DNA of 23,646 nt from a virus, in IMG/VR virus record IMGVR_UViG_3300004463_000175, positions 1 to 23,646 of that record, one strand, 5' to 3'. The notes under the pieces were generated by a model that saw nothing but the letters and a program-made list of their open reading frames with translations, was not told the DNA's origin and searched no databases. Below, piece by piece: positions 7,318-21,335 of the stretch; the stretch's first letter is position 1, and each line of letters begins with the position of its first letter. The position numbers and the translations under genes are program-made.

Positions 7318-7475
7318 CCGCGGCCGACCTGGTCTATCGCCTGGCGAAAGACCTGGGCAAGTGGCCCGCTGAGGTCGCGGCGCTCCCGCTTCACACATAT
7401 AGGGCTCTCAGAGACGCCTTCATACGCGCTAACACGCCTCCGAAGCGTAAGCGTGATCCGTTCGAGATGGGTTGA
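6928..7475 (+). CDS. Tail assembly chaperone, long -1 frameshift form (gpGT-like)
   Basis: A second open frame, -1 relative to gpG, runs from 7299 to the TGA at 7473-7475 and has no plausible own start. After a -1 slip at 7305-7311 the added 54 residues read as a T-type domain: T-A-A-D-L-V-Y-R-L-A-K-D-L-G-K-W-P, then L-P-L-H-T-Y-R-A-L, a basic P-P-K-R-K-R-D-P-F-E-M-G end. The -1 frame is closed by TGA at 7296-7298 and gpG ends at 7317, so any slip must occur within about 18 bases, where only this slippery run fits. The predicted fusion is about 182 residues. The ratio of short to long form is critical for tail assembly in lambda-like phages. Confidence 0.85.
7305..7311 (+). promoter_or_regulatory. 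-1 ribosomal frameshift site, G GGG GAA
   Basis: The heptamer sits across codons GGG and GAA of gpG. The P-site pairing is fully kept after a one-base backward slip; the A-site tRNA would re-pair with GGA, which is imperfect. It lies inside the only stretch (7299-7317) where gpG and the -1 frame are both open. Confidence 0.75.
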
Positions 7476-10400
7476 TGGCTGACGACACCATCCAGACAAT
7501 CAAAATAGGTCTCGGCATTGACACGGCTGGCCTGCGGCAACAGGCGAAGCAAGCGCGTGCCGATATCAAACGTGAGCTGCGCGACAGCGCCGTAACTGTC
7601 ACGCCCCTTCTGGGCAAGGTTCCCGCGGGCGAGGTCGCGAAGGCAGCCAAGGACATCGCGAACAAGGTCCAGGCACAGCTCAAGGCTGCGACCACGATCA
7701 CGCCCAAGTTCACGGTCACTAAGCAGTCGATCACCCAGCTTCGCCGTTCCATCGACGACGAGTTCAAGCAGTCACCGATCCGCGCACCAATCGAGTTCCG
7801 CAAGGTCACTACGGGCGCAATCCGTCAGGCGCGCCGCGATATGGAAGCCATGTGGAACAGCAGCCCGGTGCGTGTGCCGCTGACCTGGTATTGGAAGGAT
7901 GGCCCGCCCCCGACAGATCTAGGCGTTTCAGGCAAGGGTGGTCCACAGGGCGGTGGCACTGGCGGCGCAGCAGGTCCTTCCGGGCCAGCCGCAGGACCGG
8001 CCCCACAGTCGACCCGGGCCGAACGCCGTGAGGCGAATAAGGCCGCCTGGGCGCAGCGCGGTGCGCGTGGCGCTACCGGAGCGCCTCGTTCCACTGGTGG
8101 CGCGGCTGCCGCTACCACTGCGCCGCCCACATCCCCACCCCCGCCGACATTCACAGAACCTGCCCCACTGGCCTCTGCCCCGCGTAGAACGGGGCAGGCT
8201 GCTGCGCGTCCAGCACGGCAAGCCGCACGCCAGCCACGAACGACTCCGGCTGGCACTCAACAGCGTGTCAGCATGGACGAGCTGCGCGGCGGCCATGAGC
8301 AGCCCATTTCCTGGAACGAGTTCGCCGCCGCAGAGGCGGAGAGAGCCCGCGGCACCTTCGCCCGCCAGCGTCCAGCTCGCGGTGTGCGAACCGGCTCGCG
8401 TGCTGGGAACTTCATTACTGGCACGCCAGACGAGATTGCCAACGCCCAGACACCGTTGCGCCCAGACGAGATCAAGTGGCGCGAGATCATGTGGGACTTC
8501 CACGAGCAACTCGCACGGCGTGCGGAGCGACAGGCAGCGGCCGTTCGGCATAACGACCCGGCCTGGCAACGCGCACAGGCTTTCTCTCGAGCCATCAACT
8601 CGGTCAAGCGCGACCCGAAGACAGGGACGCCCGACATCTCCGAGATGGAAGAGCTTCTCGGCGCGCGTTTCGGTGCCTCTGGAGCCAAGCTCGCGGGCGC
8701 CTATCAGGCGCTACTGCTTGGCCAGACTGATAAGGCGCGCGCAGCAGTTAGCGAAGCGTTCGAGCGGTTCGGTGCAGAGAGCGGCGTAAAGAGGGGCAAG
8801 CGAAAGCTCATACGCGCGCTCGATCCCGAGAGCGCCGCTTTCAATAAGCAGCCCGCCGACGTTCAGCTCTTCGGTGGGTTCGGCAGCGCCATCCGATCCC
8901 AAGCGTCCATCCTGGCCAACCCTGACGTCGCCCTAAAGAAGAAGACTGTCACTGGCCGCACGTTCGGTGTGACGAGCTACAACAAGGGTCTAGGGTTCAC
9001 CAAGACCGCGTTCGATACCGACAAGGACGACGTCGAGAAGATCGAAGACGAGGTCAAGCGCAGCGGCGGGTATCTCCAGGAGCGGCTCAAGCCGACCGTC
9101 GTGAAGGACGACGCCGAGCTGGGCATCAAGGAGATCTACACCACGGGCGGCCGGAGGCTGCGCGTCAAGGAAGACCCTGAGACCGGCGTCAAGACGGTCC
9201 TCAGTGAGTCCGACGAGCGGGCGAAGGACGCCGCAAAGCGCGATCGCGAGAGACTTAGCAAGGAAGTCGCCAAGCGTGCGCGCCGAGACCCGAATACGCC
9301 ATCACCGTTCGCTGGTGAGGTCGACGAGAGCCTGCGGCCAGGTCCATTGGCTCCGTTCAATCCGGCGACGTTCGGCCCTGGGCGCGAGCGCATCATCAAA
9401 CGGAAGAAACGGAAGCCGAAGATCACCGGGCTCGCTGAGGGCGGCGATGTCAAGCAGCTCGAGTTGTGGCCGGGTATGTCCAAGCTGCGTGCCGGACAGT
9501 TCCCCTGGTTCCCGATCCAGAAGTTCAGCAAGCCTGGCTCTTACGGCACCTACTCCGACATCTATGCCGCGCTGCGTCCAGAGACCTTCAACACGATGGG
9601 CAGCGTGTCGGTGTTTCACAACGCCTACGGCGATCCGGAAGACATCTTCCCGTTCGTGGAGCCGCAGTATCGGCGGCGCGGTATTGCCAGCAAGCTCTAC
9701 GAGCACATCGCGAAGGGCGGCGTTGACATCGAGGCGCTGTCAAACAGGAACGCCTCCGAGGGCGGGCAGACCGAAGAAGGCTCCGCATTCTGGCAAGCCC
9801 GCAAGCGGCGCCAGGGCTGGACCAACAAGGACATTCGCGCGCTTGTGCGGCCCCCTGCCGATCCATATGGCAAGTGGGACGGCGTATTGGAGCGCAAGGC
9901 GAGCGGCGGGCTCGTTGAGCGACTGCTAGCCGCCACGCTTGATGCGAGCGGCGCAATCAAGCCTGGCATGGAGGCGCGCAGTCAGCAGTACAACCAGATC
10001 CTCGAGCAGAAGCGCGGCGGGTGGAAGGGCGCCTACCTGACCGGCGAGCGCGGCGTCGAGTGGTACAAGTCCAAGAGCGGCAAGCACGATCGTCCTGTAG
10101 GACTGCGCGGGCCAGAGATCTTCACGCCGCCCGAAGACGGCGAGATCATCCCGCACCACAAGCTTCCTGGGCGTGCATCTGGCGGCCCCGTCTATCCATT
10201 CCGCGGCACGTTCCAGAACACCAAGGGTCGGGTCATCAGCGAGGCTGAGGCGAGCCGTCACGGCGTCGTCAAGGGCTACGGCGAGATCGCCCGCGTCTAC
10301 GTCGTCAACTTCCCCGCGGCGTTCACAACCCCGGTCGTTGCCGACGCTCGCACAGCACGTGCCGACACGTTAACGAGGAAGGTCCAGGAGAGCGCAGAGG

Positions 10401-13400
10401 AAGGCGAACCGACTCTTCTTGGCACGGCTAGGTCGACGAGGCAGACGCCGCTCCAGACAGCCCAAGCGAAGCTTCAAGCGCGAGAGACGATCGAGCCGCT
10501 GCTTGATGAGATTGGCGACATTCGCTCGAGTATCTCCGAGCAGCTCCAACTGACTCCTGTGCGTGCCTTGTCGGTGTCCATTGGACAGATCTTCCAGACA
10601 GCCTTCGGCGGTCGCGCCGGTATCTTGGCCCGCTCCCGCATTGCCAATCGCGCCGCTGCTGAGGCTCAGCAGTTTGCCGAGCAGCAAAGGGCCAGTCAGG
10701 AGCGAGCTTCGCGAGTGGGGGATCAGCTTTCACTCGCTCGTACCTTAGGCGCTCAGCCTGAAGAGCTTCGTCCCCTGGAGCAGGAGCAGGCTCAACATCT
10801 CGCGGCGGCGGCCACGTTCGGGGAAGCCGCTCGTCAACGCGCCGTTGACGCACGTATTCGTGCTGAGGGCGAGCAGAAGACCATCAAGCTTGTCCGCCAG
10901 AGGCAGCAGGAAGGCGAGATCAGCGGCGCTGAAGCGGAACAACGGATTGCTGAGATACGACAGCGCGCAGCAGCAATACCTGAAGGCGAGCGCAGGGGGG
11001 TGGCGACCCGTACGAACCGACTCCAGGCGCAGGCTCTTGGCCTGACCGGCATCGTCGTTGGTACGATCGGCTTTACCGCGGCGATGCACGCTGCCCAGTT
11101 GGCCCTCGACTTGTTCGGCAAGGCGACAAGCGACGGCGTCGACCGGCTGACGGGCTGGAACGGTGCGCTCGCAAAAGCGTCGGCAGAGTTGGCTGTCGCA
11201 GCGCAGGCTGTGCCTGGCGCGCCGCAGGCCGGTCTAGCCGCTCAGTACGCTCGCCTGGGTGTAACGGGCGAGCAGTTCCCGTTGCTCGGTCCATTCGCTA
11301 CGCGGCTCGCGGGCGCACAGAACCTCCAGACCGTCATCGGCATGATGCGCGCGGAGAGCAACCTGCGTGCCCAGGTGAACGGCAATCCGAATGTCGTTCC
11401 CGGTATCGGCACCGGGTTTGGAAATGGGCCGCTGGCCTTCCTGGGTGGCGGACTTGGCTGGCTCGGCCAGACGCCAGGCGCGCTCGAGCAACTCGGCGGC
11501 GCATTGGCAAGCGGCGGCTACTCTGGGTCGCCTATTCAGGCGGCGCCTCTCTTTGGAAGCCTGCCATTTCTCAGCCCCGACGTCATGGATACCTTGGCAA
11601 ACAAGTTCGCTCCGGGCACCGCGTCGACCTGGGACCCACGTGTCCGTGCGGGCATAGCGTCAGGCGCGAGTGCCTTAAGCAATCTGCCGTTTGTCGGCGG
11701 GTTCTTCAATGACTGGTCCCGCAACCTCGAAGAGCAGGATCGCGTCCAGAAGGAGGGCGCGGACAACTTCGCAAGCCAGATCGACACCTTCAACGATCGG
11801 ATCTACCGATCGGTTGGCGACGCGGCGAGGCTCCAAGTCGGTGCTACGAAAGAGCAGCTTACGGCCTCGATCGAGGCGTTCAGGCAGGCTGGCAACAAGC
11901 AGGCCGGTGAGCAGCTAGCCAGACAGGGCATCGCCGTTGTAGGGGCCGGTGGCGCTGCCGCGACCGCTGACATCGTCAACATGGTTGGCGACGCGATCGT
12001 CAGGCTGCTGCCCTCGCGTGCCGCGCTGGAAGCGGCAATACGTCCGCAGCTCGCGGGCCAGTTGGCAGGCATCAGCGTCAACGCTCAGCGTCAGCGCGAG
12101 CAGTTGATCCCAACCCAGCTCGCGATGCAGCTCATCGCTCGTCCACAGCTTGCGCCGTCGACCGGCCTGGTCCCGACCCAGACGACCGCCAACATCACCC
12201 AGCCCGGTGTTGTCAACGACACCGCTCAGGCAATGTCGTCCTACGTCGGTCAGGTTGCGCGTTACCAGCAGATGTCGCGTGAGCTGGCGCAACCAGGCTA
12301 TGACTGGCTGGCCAAGCTCTCGCCAGAGGCTCAGGAAGCGATCGGCCACGTGCGCGAGCTGGGTCAGGAAATCGCCGCCATCAGGCAGCGCACGGCGACT
12401 ATTCAGACCAACTTCGCCAACGACGAATGGCTACGACAGCAGGATCTCGCGCTCCGGCAGGCAGGCGACATGGTCGGCCTCCTGGGCGAGCAGTCACGCA
12501 CGGTGCACCTGATCAACGACTACGACAGCCAGGGCAACGCGATCTTCGAGGATCGGCTCGTCCAGGCCACAGAACTGGGCCGTCTCCAGAGGGATCAACT
12601 TAATGCCACGCGCGAGCAGCAGCGCATCTCCTTCCAGATCGAGCAGCGTGACATCAACTTCCAACGGGCGCTGGCTCAGATCGAAGTGCCTGGCCGTACG
12701 CCGGGTGAGCAGCAGGCTTACGTTGACGCCGCGGAGCGCCATGCTCGAGAGCGCCAAGAGGCGCATGACCGGGCGGTCGACATTTTCGAGCGCGGCATCA
12801 CGATCGAGAACATCCAGCTCGGCCGTCAGGCGAATGACTTCCTGAACAAGGACCTGCCTGCCATGTTCCAGGGGCACTACGTCAACATCGAGGTCACTGG
12901 CGGCGAGGCTGCCGTGACCGCCGCGCAAGATGCGCAGAATGGCTGGCTAGGGTTCGCGGACTCATTCAAGTCCGAGATGGAGGAGGTCGAGAGCGCGGTC
13001 ATATCTGCCGCGCTGTCCGTCGAGACCCAGATGAACGCCTATCAGGAAACGTTCGCTTCGACGATCGACGCCAACCTGGCCGCCATCCAGACGAAGTACC
13101 CGCAGTTCTTCTCGCAGATGACCCTGCCGTCTGACGTTCCTGCTCCACCTGCGCCTGTTCCGCCTTGGTGGCACGGTGGCCCAGGTGGTGAAGACCGCGG
13201 TGGCGGCGACGCTGGCGGTGGCTACGCGACAGGCTCATGGCGGACCGGCAATGAGCTGGCCATGCTCCACGCGGGCGAGATGGTCATCCCAGCCAATCAG
13301 GCTGCCTGGATGCGAGCGACGATGCTTGGTGCCTCGGTGCCTGCCAGTAGCGGTGGCGGCAATGTCCAGATCGTCATCAACAACCCCGTGGTGCGCGACG

Positions 13401-13483
13401 AGAGCGACATCGACAAGATTGCGCGCAGGGTCGAGGAAGTGATGAACAGGAGGGCCGTGTCAGTTGGGCTGGTGAACAACTGA
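7475..13483 (+). CDS. Tape measure protein with embedded GNAT-like segment
   Basis: The longest gene in the window (2002 residues, ATG at 7475 in a TGATG overlap with gpGT). It sets tail length; at about 1.5 angstrom per helical residue a fully helical chain would span near 300 nm, an upper bound because parts look globular. Order: helical N-terminus 1-140; Pro/Ala/Gly-rich linker about 140-265; helical section to about 640; GNAT-like segment about 660-780 with V-E-P-Q-Y-R-R-R-G-I-A-S-K-L-Y; A-x-G-G-x-V motifs near 650, 810 and 900; coiled coil about 990-1180; hydrophobic stretch about 1185-1215 that may insert into the host membrane; another near 1490-1515; more coiled coil; C-terminal G-G-Y-A-T-G ... 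A-M-L-H-A-G-E-M-V-I-P typical of tape measures. No tape-measure peptidase motif was recognised. Confidence 0.94.
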   Translation: MADDTIQTIKIGLGIDTAGLRQQAKQARADIKRELRDSAVTVTPLLGKVPAGEVAKAAKDIANKVQAQLKAATTITPKFTVTKQSITQLRRSIDDEFKQSPIRAPIEFRKVTTGAIRQARRDMEAMWNSSPVRVPLTWYWKDGPPPTDLGVSGKGGPQGGGTGGAAGPSGPAAGPAPQSTRAERREANKAAWAQRGARGATGAPRSTGGAAAATTAPPTSPPPPTFTEPAPLASAPRRTGQAAARPARQAARQPRTTPAGTQQRVSMDELRGGHEQPISWNEFAAAEAERARGTFARQRPARGVRTGSRAGNFITGTPDEIANAQTPLRPDEIKWREIMWDFHEQLARRAERQAAAVRHNDPAWQRAQAFSRAINSVKRDPKTGTPDISEMEELLGARFGASGAKLAGAYQALLLGQTDKARAAVSEAFERFGAESGVKRGKRKLIRALDPESAAFNKQPADVQLFGGFGSAIRSQASILANPDVALKKKTVTGRTFGVTSYNKGLGFTKTAFDTDKDDVEKIEDEVKRSGGYLQERLKPTVVKDDAELGIKEIYTTGGRRLRVKEDPETGVKTVLSESDERAKDAAKRDRERLSKEVAKRARRDPNTPSPFAGEVDESLRPGPLAPFNPATFGPGRERIIKRKKRKPKITGLAEGGDVKQLELWPGMSKLRAGQFPWFPIQKFSKPGSYGTYSDIYAALRPETFNTMGSVSVFHNAYGDPEDIFPFVEPQYRRRGIASKLYEHIAKGGVDIEALSNRNASEGGQTEEGSAFWQARKRRQGWTNKDIRALVRPPADPYGKWDGVLERKASGGLVERLLAATLDASGAIKPGMEARSQQYNQILEQKRGGWKGAYLTGERGVEWYKSKSGKHDRPVGLRGPEIFTPPEDGEIIPHHKLPGRASGGPVYPFRGTFQNTKGRVISEAEASRHGVVKGYGEIARVYVVNFPAAFTTPVVADARTARADTLTRKVQESAEEGEPTLLGTARSTRQTPLQTAQAKLQARETIEPLLDEIGDIRSSISEQLQLTPVRALSVSIGQIFQTAFGGRAGILARSRIANRAAAEAQQFAEQQRASQERASRVGDQLSLARTLGAQPEELRPLEQEQAQHLAAAATFGEAARQRAVDARIRAEGEQKTIKLVRQRQQEGEISGAEAEQRIAEIRQRAAAIPEGERRGVATRTNRLQAQALGLTGIVVGTIGFTAAMHAAQLALDLFGKATSDGVDRLTGWNGALAKASAELAVAAQAVPGAPQAGLAAQYARLGVTGEQFPLLGPFATRLAGAQNLQTVIGMMRAESNLRAQVNGNPNVVPGIGTGFGNGPLAFLGGGLGWLGQTPGALEQLGGALASGGYSGSPIQAAPLFGSLPFLSPDVMDTLANKFAPGTASTWDPRVRAGIASGASALSNLPFVGGFFNDWSRNLEEQDRVQKEGADNFASQIDTFNDRIYRSVGDAARLQVGATKEQLTASIEAFRQAGNKQAGEQLARQGIAVVGAGGAAATADIVNMVGDAIVRLLPSRAALEAAIRPQLAGQLAGISVNAQRQREQLIPTQLAMQLIARPQLAPSTGLVPTQTTANITQPGVVNDTAQAMSSYVGQVARYQQMSRELAQPGYDWLAKLSPEAQEAIGHVRELGQEIAAIRQRTATIQTNFANDEWLRQQDLALRQAGDMVGLLGEQSRTVHLINDYDSQGNAIFEDRLVQATELGRLQRDQLNATREQQRISFQIEQRDINFQRALAQIEVPGRTPGEQQAYVDAAERHARERQEAHDRAVDIFERGITIENIQLGRQANDFLNKDLPAMFQGHYVNIEVTGGEAAVTAAQDAQNGWLGFADSFKSEMEEVESAVISAALSVETQMNAYQETFASTIDANLAAIQTKYPQFFSQMTLPSDVPAPPAPVPPWWHGGPGGEDRGGGDAGGGYATGSWRTGNELAMLHAGEMVIPANQAAWMRATMLGASVPASSGGGNVQIVINNPVVRDESDIDKIARRVEEVMNRRAVSVGLVNN

Positions 13484-16400
13484 TGGTCGCCGTTCAGGTG
13501 CTCTACGAAGGCGTCGATATCACCGCCGACGTCAAGTTTGACGAGGCACGCTTCACCTCCCGCGCTGGGCCAGATGCAGGCGAAGCCGAGATCAAGGTCC
13601 GCGACAAGGAACACGTCTACGCTCCTGGCTTCTTCCAAGTAGGCGGGACGCTGGAGCTATTCATAGACGGCGTCCGACAGTGGGATGGCTGGGTCATGTC
13701 GAAGGATCGCGTGTGGTCGTTCCCGGCTGAGGACACGCGAGACGTCGCCCGCTTGACGAGTTGGACGCGGCTCAGGGGATACGACCGCAACATCCTCTTC
13801 TCGCGCCGCTTCCACCTCGACAAGAACAACCCGGTCAACCTCGACTTCGGCACGTACCAGGCAGGCGCCATCGACCAAGTGGTCGTGCGTGACATCCTCG
13901 ACCGGTTCACGACGCTCGAAGAGGATGGGTTGGATCTGGTCTCGGGGATCGCCGCGGTCGGCGCGATAGACCCTTACGTGTCGATCAAGGCCGCGTCTGC
14001 TGGCGAGTCCCTGGGCACCTCGATGCAGGGCATCTCGTCTCAGAACGGGGCGGTGTTCTACATCGACCCCGATCGCGTCTTTCGTTACGTCGACGACACC
14101 ACAGAAACTGCGCCATTCGCGCTCTCGGATCAGCCCGCGGATGGCGAGGTCGGTTACCGCGAGCTGACCATCTGGGAAGACGGCCAGCAGCTCTTCAACG
14201 ATGCGCTGATCTGGGGCGTAGGACAGGGCAGCCCGAACCCTGTATTCGCTCGTGTTGAAAGTGAAGACTCGATCAGCTTGCATGGACGGCTCCAGTTCGG
14301 TGGCTTTGAGCGAGCGATGTATGTCCAGCAGTCTGTTCAGCGCCGCGCTGACACGCTGGTCAATGGCTCGCCTGGCCACAACCGTGGCCACAAGGAAGAC
14401 GCCGTTCAGATCGACTGTGTCATCTACGAACCCGGACTACGAGTGGGCATGGGCGTTGGCTTCCGTTCGTTCTCCTGGGACTTCGGAGACCTGACGCTCG
14501 ATCTGGCGGATCTCGTCTACACGCCTGGCAACTACAACAAGAACACCGAGTTTGAGCGACTCCTCGTGAGCATCGGCAAGATCGAGTCGAACAACAACTA
14601 CACGCGCCAGAACAAGCGGTCGAAGGCTTACGGTCGCTGGCAGGTCATGCCTGGCAACTGGCGTGTCTGGGGGCCATTGGCGCTGGGCCTGCCGCGGTCG
14701 GTTGGCGTGGCATCGCGTGATATCGACCCATTGCACTGGTATCCGCCCGCGACGCCGCAGAACCAGGACACGGTGGTCCGCTGGCGCATGGGCAAGATGT
14801 ACCAGACCAAGGGCCAGGACCCGCGGCGCGTGGCGGCTGCGTGGCGCTCTGGCGCCAGCGTGGGCAGCCGCGAGGCGTCGACCTGGGGTCGCGGGACGCT
14901 CAAGTATGTCAACCACGCCTGTATGCCGCTGGGCTACGCAGAGGTCACGACCTCGACCACGCTCGATCCGATCAGCGAGCCCGATTACGACCGCGAGGAT
15001 TTCCAGCCTGGCGAGAACTCGGATGACGTGTATCCGGTGCGGCGCCTGGAGATGACCTTCCCGACGCCAGACAGCGTTCGCTATCGGGTGATCATGTCGC
15101 ACTTCCCAGACACGCCCTGGGCCTATCGCGACCCGCTGCCGCCACTCGACCCGAGACCTGGGTTCCAGTGGACCGACTACTTCACGCTCTACTCGCCCAT
15201 CCCGGGTGGGGAATGGCCACCCTTTAGCGACGTCGCCACTCTGAGTACCAACGCCCCAGCCCGCTCTTTCACCGGGTTGTTAAACGCCCTCTCGCTTTCC
15301 AAGGGCGAGACCGGTACGCGGCAAGGGAAAGGGCTCTACAGCTCGGTGGGCATCCAGTTTGGGTTCGCTGCTGGTATACCGTGGTATGAGACCAACTGTG
15401 GCCTCGGGCCTGGAGGTTGGACGTATTGGGAGACGTCCGAGCGGTGGTATCCGCTCAAGACCCTTTTCCAGTCCGAGTTCTTCATGGTCGGTCTCGATAG
15501 TCAGGGTAATCCTGTTTACAAGACGCTCGCTGAGATTAACGAGCATTACCCGATCGAGGTGAGGCTAACCGGGACCGGGGTCCTCTCTGGCTACACGCCC
15601 AGCCTCACCTTGCGGTATGCAAATGTCGACCCGGTCGAGCCCAGTGGCCAGGTACATTACGGGGAAGGCACGAAGCTAGGGATCATGTCGCTCGACGGCG
15701 GTGTGGCGGGCGAGCGAGGCTTTGACTTCGCCAACGCAGGGACGATCCTGATCCCTCCCGGGACCATCCAAGGCCCGAGTCCATGGTTCGTGTTGGCTCC
15801 AAGCTGGGAGTGTGCCCACGTCGGGCCTCCGTCCTACTATTGCGATCCGTACTACTCGGGGAACGCGTATGGATGTGGCGGAAGGGGACCACGCTGCTCC
15901 GGGGAGGGCAACTCCGGCGTGGTCAATCTCGTCACCGGTCCGAACTGGGAGTTGGAGGTTGTCGGATGGCCGACTAGTGGCCTGGACGACTGGGCTAGCT
16001 CGCAGTGGACTGGGTCTGATAGCGGTGGATCGGTGTGGTACGGCAACACCTTCCGCACGACCTTCCCGTACATCGCGGGCACGCTCGAGATCTCATACCA
16101 GGGCGTCAAACTGACACGCGGCGTGGAGTACACCGAGACCGATCCCGCCGCGGGCGTCTTCACTCTTAATCAGACCTTCGCAGGCGAGGTCACGCTGGTC
16201 GTGACCTACCGGGTGGCCTACGGCTCAAGCCCTACCTCTCCCATGCCGGGTGAGCCTGGCGGCGATGTGATAAACGACTCTGCGCTGGGCGCAGTCATTG
16301 CGATGACCATCGCGCAGCTTGGTAAGCCATATGTCTTTGGCACGGAAGGACCGAACACGTTCGACTGCTCGGGCCTGATCTACTACGTCTTCAAGGCAAC

Positions 16401-17343
16401 CGGTTACGGCGAGCTGATGGGTGGAACTCGTCGAGGCGCGACGTCTTACGCGCGCTGGTTCGCCGACCAGAACCGGTTCACGACCAACTTCAACTACGCC
16501 CGACGAGGCGATCTGGTGTGCTATTCGGACAACTGGCCGCGCGTCACCCACATCGGCATCTACATGGGCGACGGCACGGCCATCAGCGCCCTGAACCCTG
16601 CCCTCGGGGTGCGGAGACACCGGGTCAACGGGATCGGGGTGCCGATTGTCGGAGCGTGCTTGATGGCCTACCCATCAGGCGTCTCTCGTTCGAGTACCGA
16701 TGGGGCGGACATTCTCGCGACAGGCACGGATGTCGCGCCTGATCCCGCTGACGTCGAGGTCTTGCCTGACCCGGCTCCCACGGGCCACATCTACCGACCT
16801 ATCCCGCAATGCCAGTTCGGCTGGGGGACGCAATGGGACGGGCAGAACTGCAACATGGCCGCAGCCGCTATGGCCCTCGATCGGCACACGCTCGGTAACT
16901 ACACGCCTACCAATGGGACCCCACGTAGCACACCACCGAACATGCGGCTGTACAGCGGACGCATCGGAGCCGATAGCCTGAACCGACTGGGAACCACCAT
17001 CGCCGATGCCGTGACGGCTTGGAGTGCTGGTTGGAGCGAGGTGTTGCTCTCGCCTGGCGCAGTGAACTGGGACTACTTCGTCGCCCAGATCCGGGATGGC
17101 CGCGGAGCAATCCTGCATGGCCGCGAGTCAGCATTGCCAGAGGAGTTCAGGCGCTCCAACTGGCAGGACGCGCACGCGCTGTATGTCAATGAGATCCTCA
17201 CCGACGACAGCTTCTGGGTCGTCGACCCGCTTGGGCAGCAGGCGGCGATCTTCCAGCCCGACGTGCTTAAGGCTTATGCCCAGTCGCTCTATGGTGCCGA
17301 CATCATCATCTGCGGACTGACGCGGAGGACCCCACAAAGCTAA
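13483..17343 (+). CDS. Tail hub protein with lytic transglycosylase, NlpC/P60 and C39-like peptidase domains
   Basis: A 1286-residue protein. Residues 1 to about 345 resemble the tail-hub protein encoded next (V-D-I-T, F-Y-I-D-P-D-R, D-A-L-I-W-G). About 355-485 is a transglycosylase SLT domain: I-G-K-I-E-S-N with catalytic Glu368, then A-Y-G-R-W-Q-V-M-P. The hub part then resumes (P-V-R-R-L-E-M-T-F-P-T). About 560-850 is an unrecognised beta-rich region with a four-cysteine cluster (Cys777, 787, 798, 805). About 852-914 is an Ig-like beta module. About 938-1060 is NlpC/P60 (F-D-C-S-G-L, Cys962; T-H-I-G-I-Y-M-G-D-G, His1023). About 1095-1286 resembles a C39-family peptidase (Q-N-C-N-M-A-A-A, Cys1123; D-A-H-A-L, His1231; Asp1248). 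It probably drills the peptidoglycan at entry. ATG overlaps the tape measure stop (TGATG). Confidence 0.92.
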   Translation: MVAVQVLYEGVDITADVKFDEARFTSRAGPDAGEAEIKVRDKEHVYAPGFFQVGGTLELFIDGVRQWDGWVMSKDRVWSFPAEDTRDVARLTSWTRLRGYDRNILFSRRFHLDKNNPVNLDFGTYQAGAIDQVVVRDILDRFTTLEEDGLDLVSGIAAVGAIDPYVSIKAASAGESLGTSMQGISSQNGAVFYIDPDRVFRYVDDTTETAPFALSDQPADGEVGYRELTIWEDGQQLFNDALIWGVGQGSPNPVFARVESEDSISLHGRLQFGGFERAMYVQQSVQRRADTLVNGSPGHNRGHKEDAVQIDCVIYEPGLRVGMGVGFRSFSWDFGDLTLDLADLVYTPGNYNKNTEFERLLVSIGKIESNNNYTRQNKRSKAYGRWQVMPGNWRVWGPLALGLPRSVGVASRDIDPLHWYPPATPQNQDTVVRWRMGKMYQTKGQDPRRVAAAWRSGASVGSREASTWGRGTLKYVNHACMPLGYAEVTTSTTLDPISEPDYDREDFQPGENSDDVYPVRRLEMTFPTPDSVRYRVIMSHFPDTPWAYRDPLPPLDPRPGFQWTDYFTLYSPIPGGEWPPFSDVATLSTNAPARSFTGLLNALSLSKGETGTRQGKGLYSSVGIQFGFAAGIPWYETNCGLGPGGWTYWETSERWYPLKTLFQSEFFMVGLDSQGNPVYKTLAEINEHYPIEVRLTGTGVLSGYTPSLTLRYANVDPVEPSGQVHYGEGTKLGIMSLDGGVAGERGFDFANAGTILIPPGTIQGPSPWFVLAPSWECAHVGPPSYYCDPYYSGNAYGCGGRGPRCSGEGNSGVVNLVTGPNWELEVVGWPTSGLDDWASSQWTGSDSGGSVWYGNTFRTTFPYIAGTLEISYQGVKLTRGVEYTETDPAAGVFTLNQTFAGEVTLVVTYRVAYGSSPTSPMPGEPGGDVINDSALGAVIAMTIAQLGKPYVFGTEGPNTFDCSGLIYYVFKATGYGELMGGTRRGATSYARWFADQNRFTTNFNYARRGDLVCYSDNWPRVTHIGIYMGDGTAISALNPALGVRRHRVNGIGVPIVGACLMAYPSGVSRSSTDGADILATGTDVAPDPADVEVLPDPAPTGHIYRPIPQCQFGWGTQWDGQNCNMAAAAMALDRHTLGNYTPTNGTPRSTPPNMRLYSGRIGADSLNRLGTTIADAVTAWSAGWSEVLLSPGAVNWDYFVAQIRDGRGAILHGRESALPEEFRRSNWQDAHALYVNEILTDDSFWVVDPLGQQAAIFQPDVLKAYAQSLYGADIIICGLTRRTPQS

Positions 17344-18965
17344 TGCCCTCGCCCTCGACCATCCAGATCCTGTTCAACAACACCGAAGACATCACGCGCT
17401 ACTGCACCTTCGCCCAGTCGCACTTCGAGACTGTCGGAACCGGCCTGCCCGGTACTGGCAGGCTGGTGCTCAAGGACCCCAACCGCGAGTTGCAGTTCCA
17501 GACCGGCGACGAGATCAAGGTCATTGTCGATGGCATTGCGATGTGGGGCGGGGTGCTCCTGGGCAAGGGCAAGGGCCACTTCTTCCCGGTCGTCGACTCG
17601 ACCGACATCGACGCGGTCCACGACGTCCAGTGGCAGCTCAACCCAACTGACTTCAACATCTGGATGGACAAGCGGGTCATTCGTGACACCTCGGACTACC
17701 TGCATCGCATTCGCCTGCCCAACGCAACGAAGCTGGGCCACATCATCAAGCAGGGCATGGCCGACTACATGGACGAGGTGCCCGGACTCGACTTCACTAC
17801 GCATGTCATCAACACCAAGATCGACGTCTCGGACCCTGATGGTGCGCTCCTGCTGGATCAGGGCAAGACCTGGCGCGAGCAGGCTGACTGGTGCGTCCAG
17901 CAGGGTGGCTTCGTGTGGTACATCGACCCGGACAAGAAGCTCCACTTCGAGGCATTCCGGGACCTGCTCCATCCATGGGGCTTTACCGACCGCTATCCGA
18001 ACAAGGTGACGTCCATCGGGTTCCGCGAGGGCACTGTCAGCGAAGACGGGATGCAGATGGTCACAGACGCCCTGGTGTGGGGCGGACAGGCCAACCATCT
18101 CGAGGACGCCCCGGAGAATGTGCAGCAGGTGTTCTTTGCACGCTTCCCTGACCCGCCAGCGAACGCGTTTGATATCAAGGGCGTCCATTACCCCATAGGG
18201 GCCGAAGAGGACGCGATCGACCGGCTCGCGCAGTATGGTCGTTGGCAACGCGCCGAGATCCACTTCGGCCAGGACCCGTACATCGACCAGGCATCCGTCA
18301 CCCAGAGGGCGGTGGCGATCACGGTCGGGCCGAAATACTCCGCGGACAACTACGACACGGGGACCGATCTCGACGGCGAAGACGTGGGTCTCAATAAACC
18401 TGTCTGGCAGATCAGCCTGACCTGGTTCGCTCACGACGTCCCCGGCAAGGTCCACCTGCGCCCGGGCAACATCGTGCCGCTGAACTTCTACACGCTCGGC
18501 GTCGACGCGGCGCATCCGCTATCGCTGCTGCTGCCACTGCGCACGCTGCGCATGTCGTTCCCCACCCTGCCGTCTGAGCTGCCTGGCGAAGATCCACAGA
18601 CCTACGTTCGCTTCGATGGCGAGTTCGGCATCAGCTACAGCGATACGCGCTACCTGTGGCGCTTCCTGAGAGCCCGTGGCGGTGATCCGCAGACCGTCTT
18701 GACGACTGTCTCGAATGCCTCCACCTCGAGCCAGCCCGGTGCGATAGGCGGCTTCTTCCCGAACGAGGCGCCCAACGGCTCGCGCATCGACTTCACGCTG
18801 CCCTTCGGCTACATCGTGGGTACGACCGAGGTCTATCTCAACGGTCTACTCCAGCGTTCACGCTTTGAGTACCTCGAGGCCGACCCAGCCAACGGCATCA
18901 TTCGCTTCGCCACGGCGCCCTTCGCAGATGACACCATCTGGGTCGTGTGCCGGACTGCGGGGTGA
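17343..18965 (+). CDS. Tail hub / baseplate protein, paralogue of the preceding gene
   Basis: The 540-residue protein shares its plan with the preceding hub protein but lacks the enzyme domains. Parallel landmarks are I-Q-I-L-F-N-N-T-E-D-I-T against V-Q-V-L-Y-E-G-V-D-I-T; V-W-Y-I-D-P-D-K against V-F-Y-I-D-P-D-R; D-A-L-V-W-G against D-A-L-I-W-G; and P-L-R-T-L-R-M-S-F-P-T against P-V-R-R-L-E-M-T-F-P-T. It ends with the Ig-like beta module (about 479-540: V-Y-L-N-G-L-L, F-E-Y-L-E-A-D-P-A-N-G-I-I-R-F) that ends the protein. The role is probably the ring or cap at the tail tip, but which of the two is the distal-tail and which the hub component is not settled by sequence reading. The start overlaps the previous stop in TAATG. 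Confidence 0.8.
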   Translation: MPSPSTIQILFNNTEDITRYCTFAQSHFETVGTGLPGTGRLVLKDPNRELQFQTGDEIKVIVDGIAMWGGVLLGKGKGHFFPVVDSTDIDAVHDVQWQLNPTDFNIWMDKRVIRDTSDYLHRIRLPNATKLGHIIKQGMADYMDEVPGLDFTTHVINTKIDVSDPDGALLLDQGKTWREQADWCVQQGGFVWYIDPDKKLHFEAFRDLLHPWGFTDRYPNKVTSIGFREGTVSEDGMQMVTDALVWGGQANHLEDAPENVQQVFFARFPDPPANAFDIKGVHYPIGAEEDAIDRLAQYGRWQRAEIHFGQDPYIDQASVTQRAVAITVGPKYSADNYDTGTDLDGEDVGLNKPVWQISLTWFAHDVPGKVHLRPGNIVPLNFYTLGVDAAHPLSLLLPLRTLRMSFPTLPSELPGEDPQTYVRFDGEFGISYSDTRYLWRFLRARGGDPQTVLTTVSNASTSSQPGAIGGFFPNEAPNGSRIDFTLPFGYIVGTTEVYLNGLLQRSRFEYLEADPANGIIRFATAPFADDTIWVVCRTAG

Positions 18966-19379: not shown

Positions 19380-21335
19380 ATGCCCAAGTTCGTCGCCGTT
19401 GGCGACGCCGCCAAGCAGGCCGGGTCCGAGGATGGCTATATCTGGCTGGAGCAGTTGGCGGGACTTCCTGGTGCGATCTACACGGTCGCCTGGGCGTATG
19501 GCGTATGGCTGGCCGCGGGGAATAACGACACCGCGGCGCGTTCAGTCGATGGCGAGAACTGGTCAGCGATCACCATCGGCTCCACCTACAACGTGTGGGG
19601 GTTTGCCCACAACGGCACAACCTGGGTCGCCGTCGATGGGTACGGGCAGGTCTTCACCAGTTCAGATGGAGAGACCTGGACACTGCAATCAACCCCGCTC
19701 GATGGGGCAAACGGCGACGCGCTATATGCGTTGGCCTATGACGAGGTAAACGGGCTCTTCATCGCGGTTGGCGAAAAGAGTTACGGGGTCCAAGGCGCAA
19801 TCATCACCAGTCCAGACGGAACGACCTGGACCGAGCGGACCGCGCCCGCTGGCTACAACTCCATCGCTTGCGTGGCCGCTGGCAACGGCATCTCAGTAAT
19901 CGGAAAGACGATCTCGGGCACAGGCACGGGGACCCAGAAGCTGGCATCGGGTACGACCGGGACGAGCTGGACGCCGCAGACGGCCTTCGATGCCACCTCC
20001 CGGCCGCTCGCGATCGCGCACGGCAATGGGTTTGTCGCCGCGGGCACTCAGGGGAAGCTCTACACGTCTAGCGACGGCGTCACATGGACTCCACAGATCT
20101 CCTTCTTTGACACCTCGGCCATCAACGGGGTGAGCTACAGCCAGGTCCTAGAGCGTTGGGTCGCGGTTGGCGGCTCAGGCAAGCTGGCCGCGAGCAATGA
20201 CGGCTTAGGCTGGACGCTACAGATCACCCCGTTCGATACGTCGACCATCTGGGCGGTTACATCTGGTGGCGGCAACGCTGCCGCCTTTGCAATGGACGCC
20301 TGGGTCCTTGCCACCCCGCGTCTCTACCTTGACGCCTATGTCCTAGCCGAGACGAGCGAGCGCATCTCGGCTACGTTCCTGAACGCCTACACCAGGAACG
20401 ACGCGTGGGACGACCCTCCCCTGCTGCGTAACTCTCGTGCCGTCCACGATCGGCGCGAGATGCACTTCGGCGTCCAAAGCGCGCTGCTGGTGGAGCTGTC
20501 CAGCGGGATTGGCACCTTCTCCGCGGGCTCGACCGTCGAGGATGTGGTCCGATACCTATGGGGGCAACTCGGCGACGCCGAGGCGTTCTGGGGTGCTCGC
20601 TTCACGCTCGGGGCGATCGCGCGGGTCATCAAGACCGGCAGCGCCACCCTCAACGCGTATATCAAGGCCGCCTTCCAGCTCGACGCCATCGTGCTCGTCG
20701 TTCGGAGCGGCGGCATCACGCTCAACGCGATCATCAAGACGACAGGCGTGGGCAGCTTCACAGCCGATGCCGAGGTCGAGGTTGGTCCGGCCTCCTTCAC
20801 GCTCGACGCGATCGTCCTCGCCTCCGGCGCGGGCAGCCCGACACTGGACGCAATCGTCCGCGCGAGTGGCGCTGGAAGCCTGACGCTGGACGCCAACTCG
20901 GTCATCAGGGTCGCGGGCACGCCAGTGCTCGATGCCTGGATCAAGGCCACGCTCACAGGCAGCTTCACACTCGACGCCAGCACACCGCTAGGCGCTGAGT
21001 CGGGCCTGCTGGGCGACCACACTCTCGGCCGTCACGAACTGGGTGGACCAGTGAGCACGGCAAGCTCCCCGACAGCGAGCTTCACCGCCGATGCAATCGT
21101 GCTGGCAGTGGTAAGCGGGACGGCGACGGTCGACGCGGTGGTGAAGGCCACGGTCAGCGCGACGTTCACACTCGACGCCTCCATAGGCCCACCGCCAGGC
21201 GGCTTCACCGCTGATGCGATCATCAAGGCGACGGTCAGCGGCAGCTTCACCCTCAACGCGGAGGTCCCGGGCGGTGGCGAGTCAGGGCTCCTCGGCGATC
21301 ACATCCTTGGCCAGCATGAACTCGGAGGCGATTAG
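19380..21335 (+). CDS. Asp-box propeller plus SFTLDA-repeat tail adhesin
   Basis: The 651-residue protein has three parts. Residues 30-285 contain six Asp-box (BNR-like) turns of the form S-x-D-G-x-x-W at about 55, 94, 144, 190, 230 and 271, spaced 39-49 residues, which predicts a six-bladed beta propeller. Residues about 350-415 repeat the domain of the preceding gene (H-F-G-V-Q-S-A-L-L-V-E-L ... L-W-G). Residues about 300-345 and 405-651 carry more than a dozen short repeats around S-F-T-L-D-A-I-V, with an E-S-G-L-L-G-D-H element at 540-556 and again at 634-650. Propellers of this type bind sugars; a sialidase active site (Arg triad) was not identified. The likely role is host-surface binding at the tail tip. 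No secretion signal is visible. ATG at 19380 follows the previous stop by three bases. Confidence 0.8.
   Translation: MPKFVAVGDAAKQAGSEDGYIWLEQLAGLPGAIYTVAWAYGVWLAAGNNDTAARSVDGENWSAITIGSTYNVWGFAHNGTTWVAVDGYGQVFTSSDGETWTLQSTPLDGANGDALYALAYDEVNGLFIAVGEKSYGVQGAIITSPDGTTWTERTAPAGYNSIACVAAGNGISVIGKTISGTGTGTQKLASGTTGTSWTPQTAFDATSRPLAIAHGNGFVAAGTQGKLYTSSDGVTWTPQISFFDTSAINGVSYSQVLERWVAVGGSGKLAASNDGLGWTLQITPFDTSTIWAVTSGGGNAAAFAMDAWVLATPRLYLDAYVLAETSERISATFLNAYTRNDAWDDPPLLRNSRAVHDRREMHFGVQSALLVELSSGIGTFSAGSTVEDVVRYLWGQLGDAEAFWGARFTLGAIARVIKTGSATLNAYIKAAFQLDAIVLVVRSGGITLNAIIKTTGVGSFTADAEVEVGPASFTLDAIVLASGAGSPTLDAIVRASGAGSLTLDANSVIRVAGTPVLDAWIKATLTGSFTLDASTPLGAESGLLGDHTLGRHELGGPVSTASSPTASFTADAIVLAVVSGTATVDAVVKATVSATFTLDASIGPPPGGFTADAIIKATVSGSFTLNAEVPGGGESGLLGDHILGQHELGGD
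20590..21329 (+). repeat. SFTLDA protein-coding repeat tract
   Basis: Imperfect repeats about 15-22 codons long, each built round a [S/G]-[F/A/L]-T-[L/A/V]-[D/N]-A-x-[V/I] core. At DNA level the core often reads GGCAGCTTCAC (for example near 20752, 20959 and 21240), so the tract is a likely substrate for unit gain or loss by recombination. Further units lie at 20290-20394 and in the preceding gene (18969-19376). Confidence 0.8.
20997..21329 (+). repeat. Duplicated LLGDH element bounding a repeat block
   Basis: Two 17-codon copies, at 20997-21047 and 21279-21329, encode E-S-G-L-L-G-D-H-[T/I]-L-G-[R/Q]-H-E-L-G-G. They differ at two residues and at many third codon positions, which argues for an old duplication kept by selection. 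The second copy nearly ends the protein. Confidence 0.85.

Follow-up and report, generated by a model that had tools for sequence, protein, structure and literature searches.

Can a single tail-hub protein carry three separate wall-active domains, one of them inside the hub fold itself, and what would a phage do with such a set? The question is raised by an open reading frame, P0001, on IMG/VR virus record IMGVR_UViG_3300004463_000175. The window, by which we mean the whole stretch of DNA that was analyzed, covers positions 1-23,646 of that record (23,646 nucleotides); it is a fragment and comes from a single metagenomic contig. The original prediction, made from the letters of the DNA alone, named an SLT transglycosylase segment splitting the hub, an NlpC/P60 domain and a C39-like domain. 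All of the residues that it singled out are in place (Glu368, Cys962, His1023, Cys1123, His1231 and Asp1248), and the coordinates are collected in Table 1.

Table 1. Features of the hub gene, its product and its neighbors in the window.
Feature	Position	Strand	Size or residues	Basis and remarks
Tape-measure protein gene	7472..13483	+		position, length, homology; adjoins the hub ORF upstream
Hub protein ORF P0001	13483-17343	+	1286 aa	
Hub domain, N-terminal part	13483..14493	+	1 to about 337	Foldseek, orthologue identity
Insert in hub fold	14494..15021	+	about 338-513 (337-516 at the widest)	not present in the paralogue or in three orthologues; either limit may shift by a few residues
SLT/GH23-like lytic transglycosylase domain in insert	14536..14946	+	Glu368; AYGRWQVMP 382-390	profile that includes P0001's own sequence
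Hub domain, C-terminal beta-hairpin	15022..15117	+	about 514-545	pLDDT, alignment
Middle region	15163..16050	+	about 561-856	no family match (Pfam); not common to orthologues, most of it without a BLAST segment to them
Small beta domain	16051..16227	+	about 857-915	BLAST/alignment, pLDDT 71-86
NlpC/P60 domain	16270..16629	+	about 930-1049; Cys962, His1023	Pfam
C39-like papain-fold domain	16783..17340	+	about 1101-1286; Gln1117, Cys1123, His1231, Asp1248	
Second hub paralogue	17343..18965	+	540 aa	uninterrupted, no recognized enzymatic domains

The window holds head genes, then the tape-measure gene, the hub gene and a second hub gene that is its paralogue (BLASTP 5e-14). Orthologues with the same gene order, the hub directly after the tape measure, were found in L005 (L003 and L004, two more contigs, cover the same place), L009 and L013, while L016 holds only the first 165 residues of the hub and L010 has two shorter hub proteins. 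The tape-measure product has homologues in L005, L009, L010, L013 and L016, each of them a long protein encoded upstream of the hub. Two hub paralogues in tandem are kept in this phage group (17343-18965 in the window, 10001-11590 in L005, 10001-11635 in L009 and about 13792-15432 in L013), and the two of L010 are separated by another gene. Elsewhere in the window, a glycosyltransferase (Pfam Glycos_transf_1, E 5.5e-19), encoded upstream of the head genes, is represented by its C-terminal part at positions 1-423, residues 724-774 of the tape-measure protein resemble a GNAT acetyltransferase below the cut-off (PF13508, E 0.009), and 19380-21335 has a DUF6242 match near threshold (E 3.6e-6, 27.4 bits vs 29). 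No match to any sheath family was found among the proteins scanned on this fragment, some of which were scanned against phage families.

Is P0001 a hub, and does the transglycosylase segment really split it? The predicted structure of residues 1-565 matches T4 gp27, Mu gp44, VgrG and the diffocin hub over part of the model (Foldseek E 3.5e-10 to 1e-6, prob 1.00), and a search against predicted viral proteins likewise gave hub-fold matches. The N-terminal hub part is 36-41% identical to the orthologues in L005, L009 and L013. These three, which are on distinct contigs, run continuously at the point where about 180 additional amino acids interrupt P0001, and the paralogue lacks the insert as well. 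In L013 the BLAST segments are contiguous on the orthologue's side, with P0001 1-347 aligned to 1-349 and 513-557 to 337-381. After the insert the hub resumes in frame with 'PVRRLEMTFPT', which aligns with 'PLRTLRMSFPT' of the next gene, just as had been predicted.

Residues 1-332 and 514-542 were modeled with fair to high confidence (521-540 at a pLDDT of about 90), while 333-513 fell below 50 because the alignment holds no close relatives of the insert. We treat the two well-modeled pieces as one domain because the orthologues align continuously and the fold matches, rather than from contacts in the model; both pieces fold, and together they match whole hub structures. The insert had been placed at 355-485, which is roughly its catalytic core, but the limits given by the comparison are wider, at about 337-516. 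Judged by alignment and model together, P0001 is a gp27/gp44/VgrG-type tail hub with an enzyme-like insert inside the fold.

Direct searches of the window with Pfam SLT and C39_2 gave no match, and the insert scored below the cut-offs of both Pfam SLT (12.5 bits, cut-off 21.3) and NCBIfam AggPromo_Cterm (22.8 bits, cut-off 40). A PDB sequence search with the SLT segment alone returned chance-level matches only. The link to SLT was made through bacterial intermediates instead. We scanned one genome per species, from 84,980 species, with a DNA pattern for the SLT motif and found eight places (L018-L025), seven in Chloroflexota and one in Sporomusa ovata; over viral contigs a DNA pattern for this motif confirmed nothing. 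The eight bacterial domains are 32-36% identical to the insert over about 120 residues, and against a profile of such domains, mostly from Chloroflexota, the insert scores 77.3 bits. Because the eight relatives had been chosen by the motif, we masked its 12 residues, and the insert still scored 39.2 bits, compared with 9.5 bits for the best of 2000 whole-protein shuffles and about 1 for the orthologues. Four of the bacterial relatives were scanned with Pfam; two pass the SLT cut-off (33.1 and 32.3 bits vs 21.3) and two pass that of Transglycosylas. Run against the PDB, the profile also reached RpfC. Glu368 and most of the GxxQxMP motif are invariant in the alignment with the eight relatives, which were chosen by the motif and not by the Glu. 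The masked score, the Pfam matches of the relatives and the RpfC match make the insert, as far as sequence comparison can place it, SLT/GH23-like; the domain is complete, with the Glu, the motif and the downstream part all there, and Glu368 is the expected catalytic acid.

The NlpC/P60 domain was more straightforward, and Pfam NLPC_P60 recognizes it as predicted (47.4 bits vs a cut-off of 23, E 2.1e-12), with Cys962 in FDCSGL and His1023 in THIGIYMG. It was modeled poorly, and in a PDB sequence search it matches the diffocin hub-hydrolase 8v3w_H. It lies in the linker between the C39-like domain and the small beta domain, which is common to the orthologues and to the C-terminus of the next gene; in the orthologues this linker is short.

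The C-terminal domain is 36-46% identical to the C-termini of the three full-length orthologues. It has no match to Pfam C39 or C39_2, and the segment alone gave only chance-level matches in a PDB sequence search. However, a profile of the four C-terminal domains finds a standalone C39-like protein in L005 (E 6e-8), which itself scores 15.5 bits against Pfam C39 (cut-off 22), and the top Foldseek matches are papain-like proteases (E 0.018 or worse, from a model that is partly of low confidence). Gln1117 lies six residues before Cys1123. Thus what survives of the C39 assignment is a papain-like domain with a Cys-His-Asp set, suggested by sequence and model, and we call it C39-like by resemblance through weak links, not a member of the C39 family. 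His1231 and Asp1248 are invariant among the four hubs, while position 1123 is Cys in P0001 and L013, Ala in L005 and Leu in L009. Standalone C39-like proteins, possible endolysins, also lie downstream of the tail genes in two relatives (14122-14877 in L005 and 16957-17709 in L009), and the one in L005 has what looks by eye like an SH3-like tail.

Among 50,697 phage records, P0001 was matched only through NlpC/P60; the next gene, the capsid protein and the SLT and C39-like parts had no counterpart in phage records. Exact-peptide scans of viral contigs with the full protein and with the C39-like domain confirmed nothing, and the hub paralogue, used as a query against bacterial genomes, found no match. 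The orthologous hubs of L005, L009 and L013 share with P0001 the hub, the small beta domain, the C39-like C-terminus and the gene order, but they are without the SLT insert and the NlpC/P60 domain, and two of them are without the C39-like Cys. Neither the SLT-like nor the NlpC/P60 domain was found in five related viral records of 28-77 kb (possibly fragments), so both were probably gained in the lineage of P0001, onto an older plan of hub and C39-like domain. This is the simplest history that the comparison suggests, with loss of both enzymes in the relatives being less simple, and on the same comparison the C39-like domain appears to be an ancestral part of the hub family.

We believe, with a probability of about 0.7, that P0001 is a wall-entry hub with two gained hydrolases and an older C39-like domain for which catalysis seems optional. 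In a tailed phage, probably one with a long tail, it would form the distal hub (Tal-like, gp27 fold), and we infer from its parts how it may act, presumably as a trimer. The hub would bring peptidoglycan-cutting enzymes to the site of DNA injection at the tail tip. There, from its place in a loop of the final hub barrel, the SLT-like domain would cleave glycan strands beside the tube opening, and stem peptides would be cleaved by the NlpC/P60 domain, which sits on the C-terminal arm. Between them the two enzymes would make a local gap through which the tube and the DNA could pass. Since the Cys has been lost in orthologues, the C39-like domain most likely serves first to bind wall peptides, with cleavage being optional. 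The host would have a peptidoglycan wall and is perhaps one of the Chloroflexota.

The original prediction is borne out in what it saw and supported in part in what it inferred. Neither of the outcomes that it named as contrary clearly occurred, with SLT reached through intermediates, C39 only through weak links, and the two hub pieces folding and together matching whole hubs. It had offered a three-step entry machine as one of two readings. In the boldest form of this reading, all three domains would be catalytic and act in sequence at entry, with the nested GH23 domain presented only when the hub opens. We consider this unlikely; the C39-like part is old and its Cys is lost in two of the four hubs, so that a three-step machine as such is not supported.

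It is also rather improbable, by our estimate, that activity is confined to one predicted enzyme, with the others serving as regulators, binders or assembly parts. That is the situation in PrgK, whose SLT domain is active while its LytM domain is degenerate and its CHAP domain has no observed activity, and in which LytM and CHAP down-regulate the SLT (PMC11323569). PrgK thus warns that predicted hydrolase domains can be inactive, and the variable position 1123 fits such a reading; against it, the catalytic residues expected for each of the three domains are intact in P0001. By the same analogy, the SLT-like enzyme of P0001 could be a muramidase.

The other role that had been proposed for the C39-like domain is maturation, by cutting the tail protein or a neighbor at a double-Gly site. 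A double Gly is the site after which the C39 peptidases in ABC exporters cut, such pairs do occur in the P0001 chain, and in two orthologues (P0003, L013) a Gly-Gly stands shortly before the domain. However, there is none directly before the domain in P0001 or L009, and L005 and L009 keep the same architecture without the Cys. With the site absent and the Cys lost in orthologues, we disfavor double-Gly maturation and regard it as very unlikely. That unrelated genes were joined artificially, by an error of assembly or sequencing, is hardly credible, even on a single metagenomic contig with no second copy of the full architecture found, given 1286 codons in one unbroken frame, an even G+C of 61-66% in every segment, both gained domains at family boundaries and a hub that resumes in frame after the insert.

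For the wall-entry hub that we prefer, the meaning is that an entire enzyme can be accommodated within the conserved barrel of a tail hub, and that a hub family otherwise without wall enzymes can gain them. Natural sites for taking them up would be the loop of the hub and the linker that precedes the C39-like domain. Because the C39-like domain occurs both with and without the Cys, it offers a natural comparison between binding and cutting as the role of such tail domains.

The SLT-like domain is also a lead to phages of Chloroflexota, for which few characterized phages are known to our knowledge. Seven of the eight genome matches to the SLT motif are from this phylum (L018, L019, L021-L025), which is a lead to the host. 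The lead is still a weak one, because in 400 genomes of the Chloroflexota set the hub paralogue found a single weak tail-like match and the capsid protein found two, both weak. One genome of that set, 7.7 Mb in size, has a pair of almost identical tail-like regions that include a distantly related hub (L026, and L027 463-2568).

How does P0001 compare with known systems? In T4, gp27 has the hub fold (1k28 chain D) and works with a wall-cutting enzyme, gp5, which carries a lysozyme inside a structural chain. The T4 enzyme is in a separate protein, however, and not in the hub. Of 98 lytic transglycosylase domains in enterococcal phages, 97 sit in tape-measure proteins (PMC10194240), so the hub is a less usual site for one. 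The Chloroflexota proteins and the tape-measure-like protein of Sporomusa ovata have the same SLT-like domain as P0001, but none of the eight is in a hub. PrgK, from pCF10 conjugation, resembles P0001 in that it serves DNA delivery and combines three predicted wall-hydrolase domains, among them an SLT and a cysteine peptidase/amidase (CHAP); unlike P0001, it is a conjugation protein and not a tail hub, its domains are LytM, SLT and CHAP, and two of them showed no hydrolase activity.

The closest published case that we found is the diffocin hub CD1368 (PDB 8v3w chain H), which the hub part of P0001 matches by fold. CD1368 has a gp27-type hub, a predicted lytic transglycosylase and an endopeptidase in one chain, with the enzymes described as C-terminal additions (PMC13324602). 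It differs in that the enzymes are not nested in the hub, the domain order is not the same, no C39-like domain is reported, and it belongs to a contractile bacteriocin. The claim that this exact set had not been seen in one hub protein therefore seems fair, although a hub with a lytic transglycosylase and an endopeptidase has been published. What is new, among openly licensed papers, is the enzyme nested inside the hub fold, as is this trio of domains, and the novelty of the nested arrangement is provisional because our literature search covered only such papers. We conclude that P0001 is an unusual new arrangement of known parts, not a new kind of machine.
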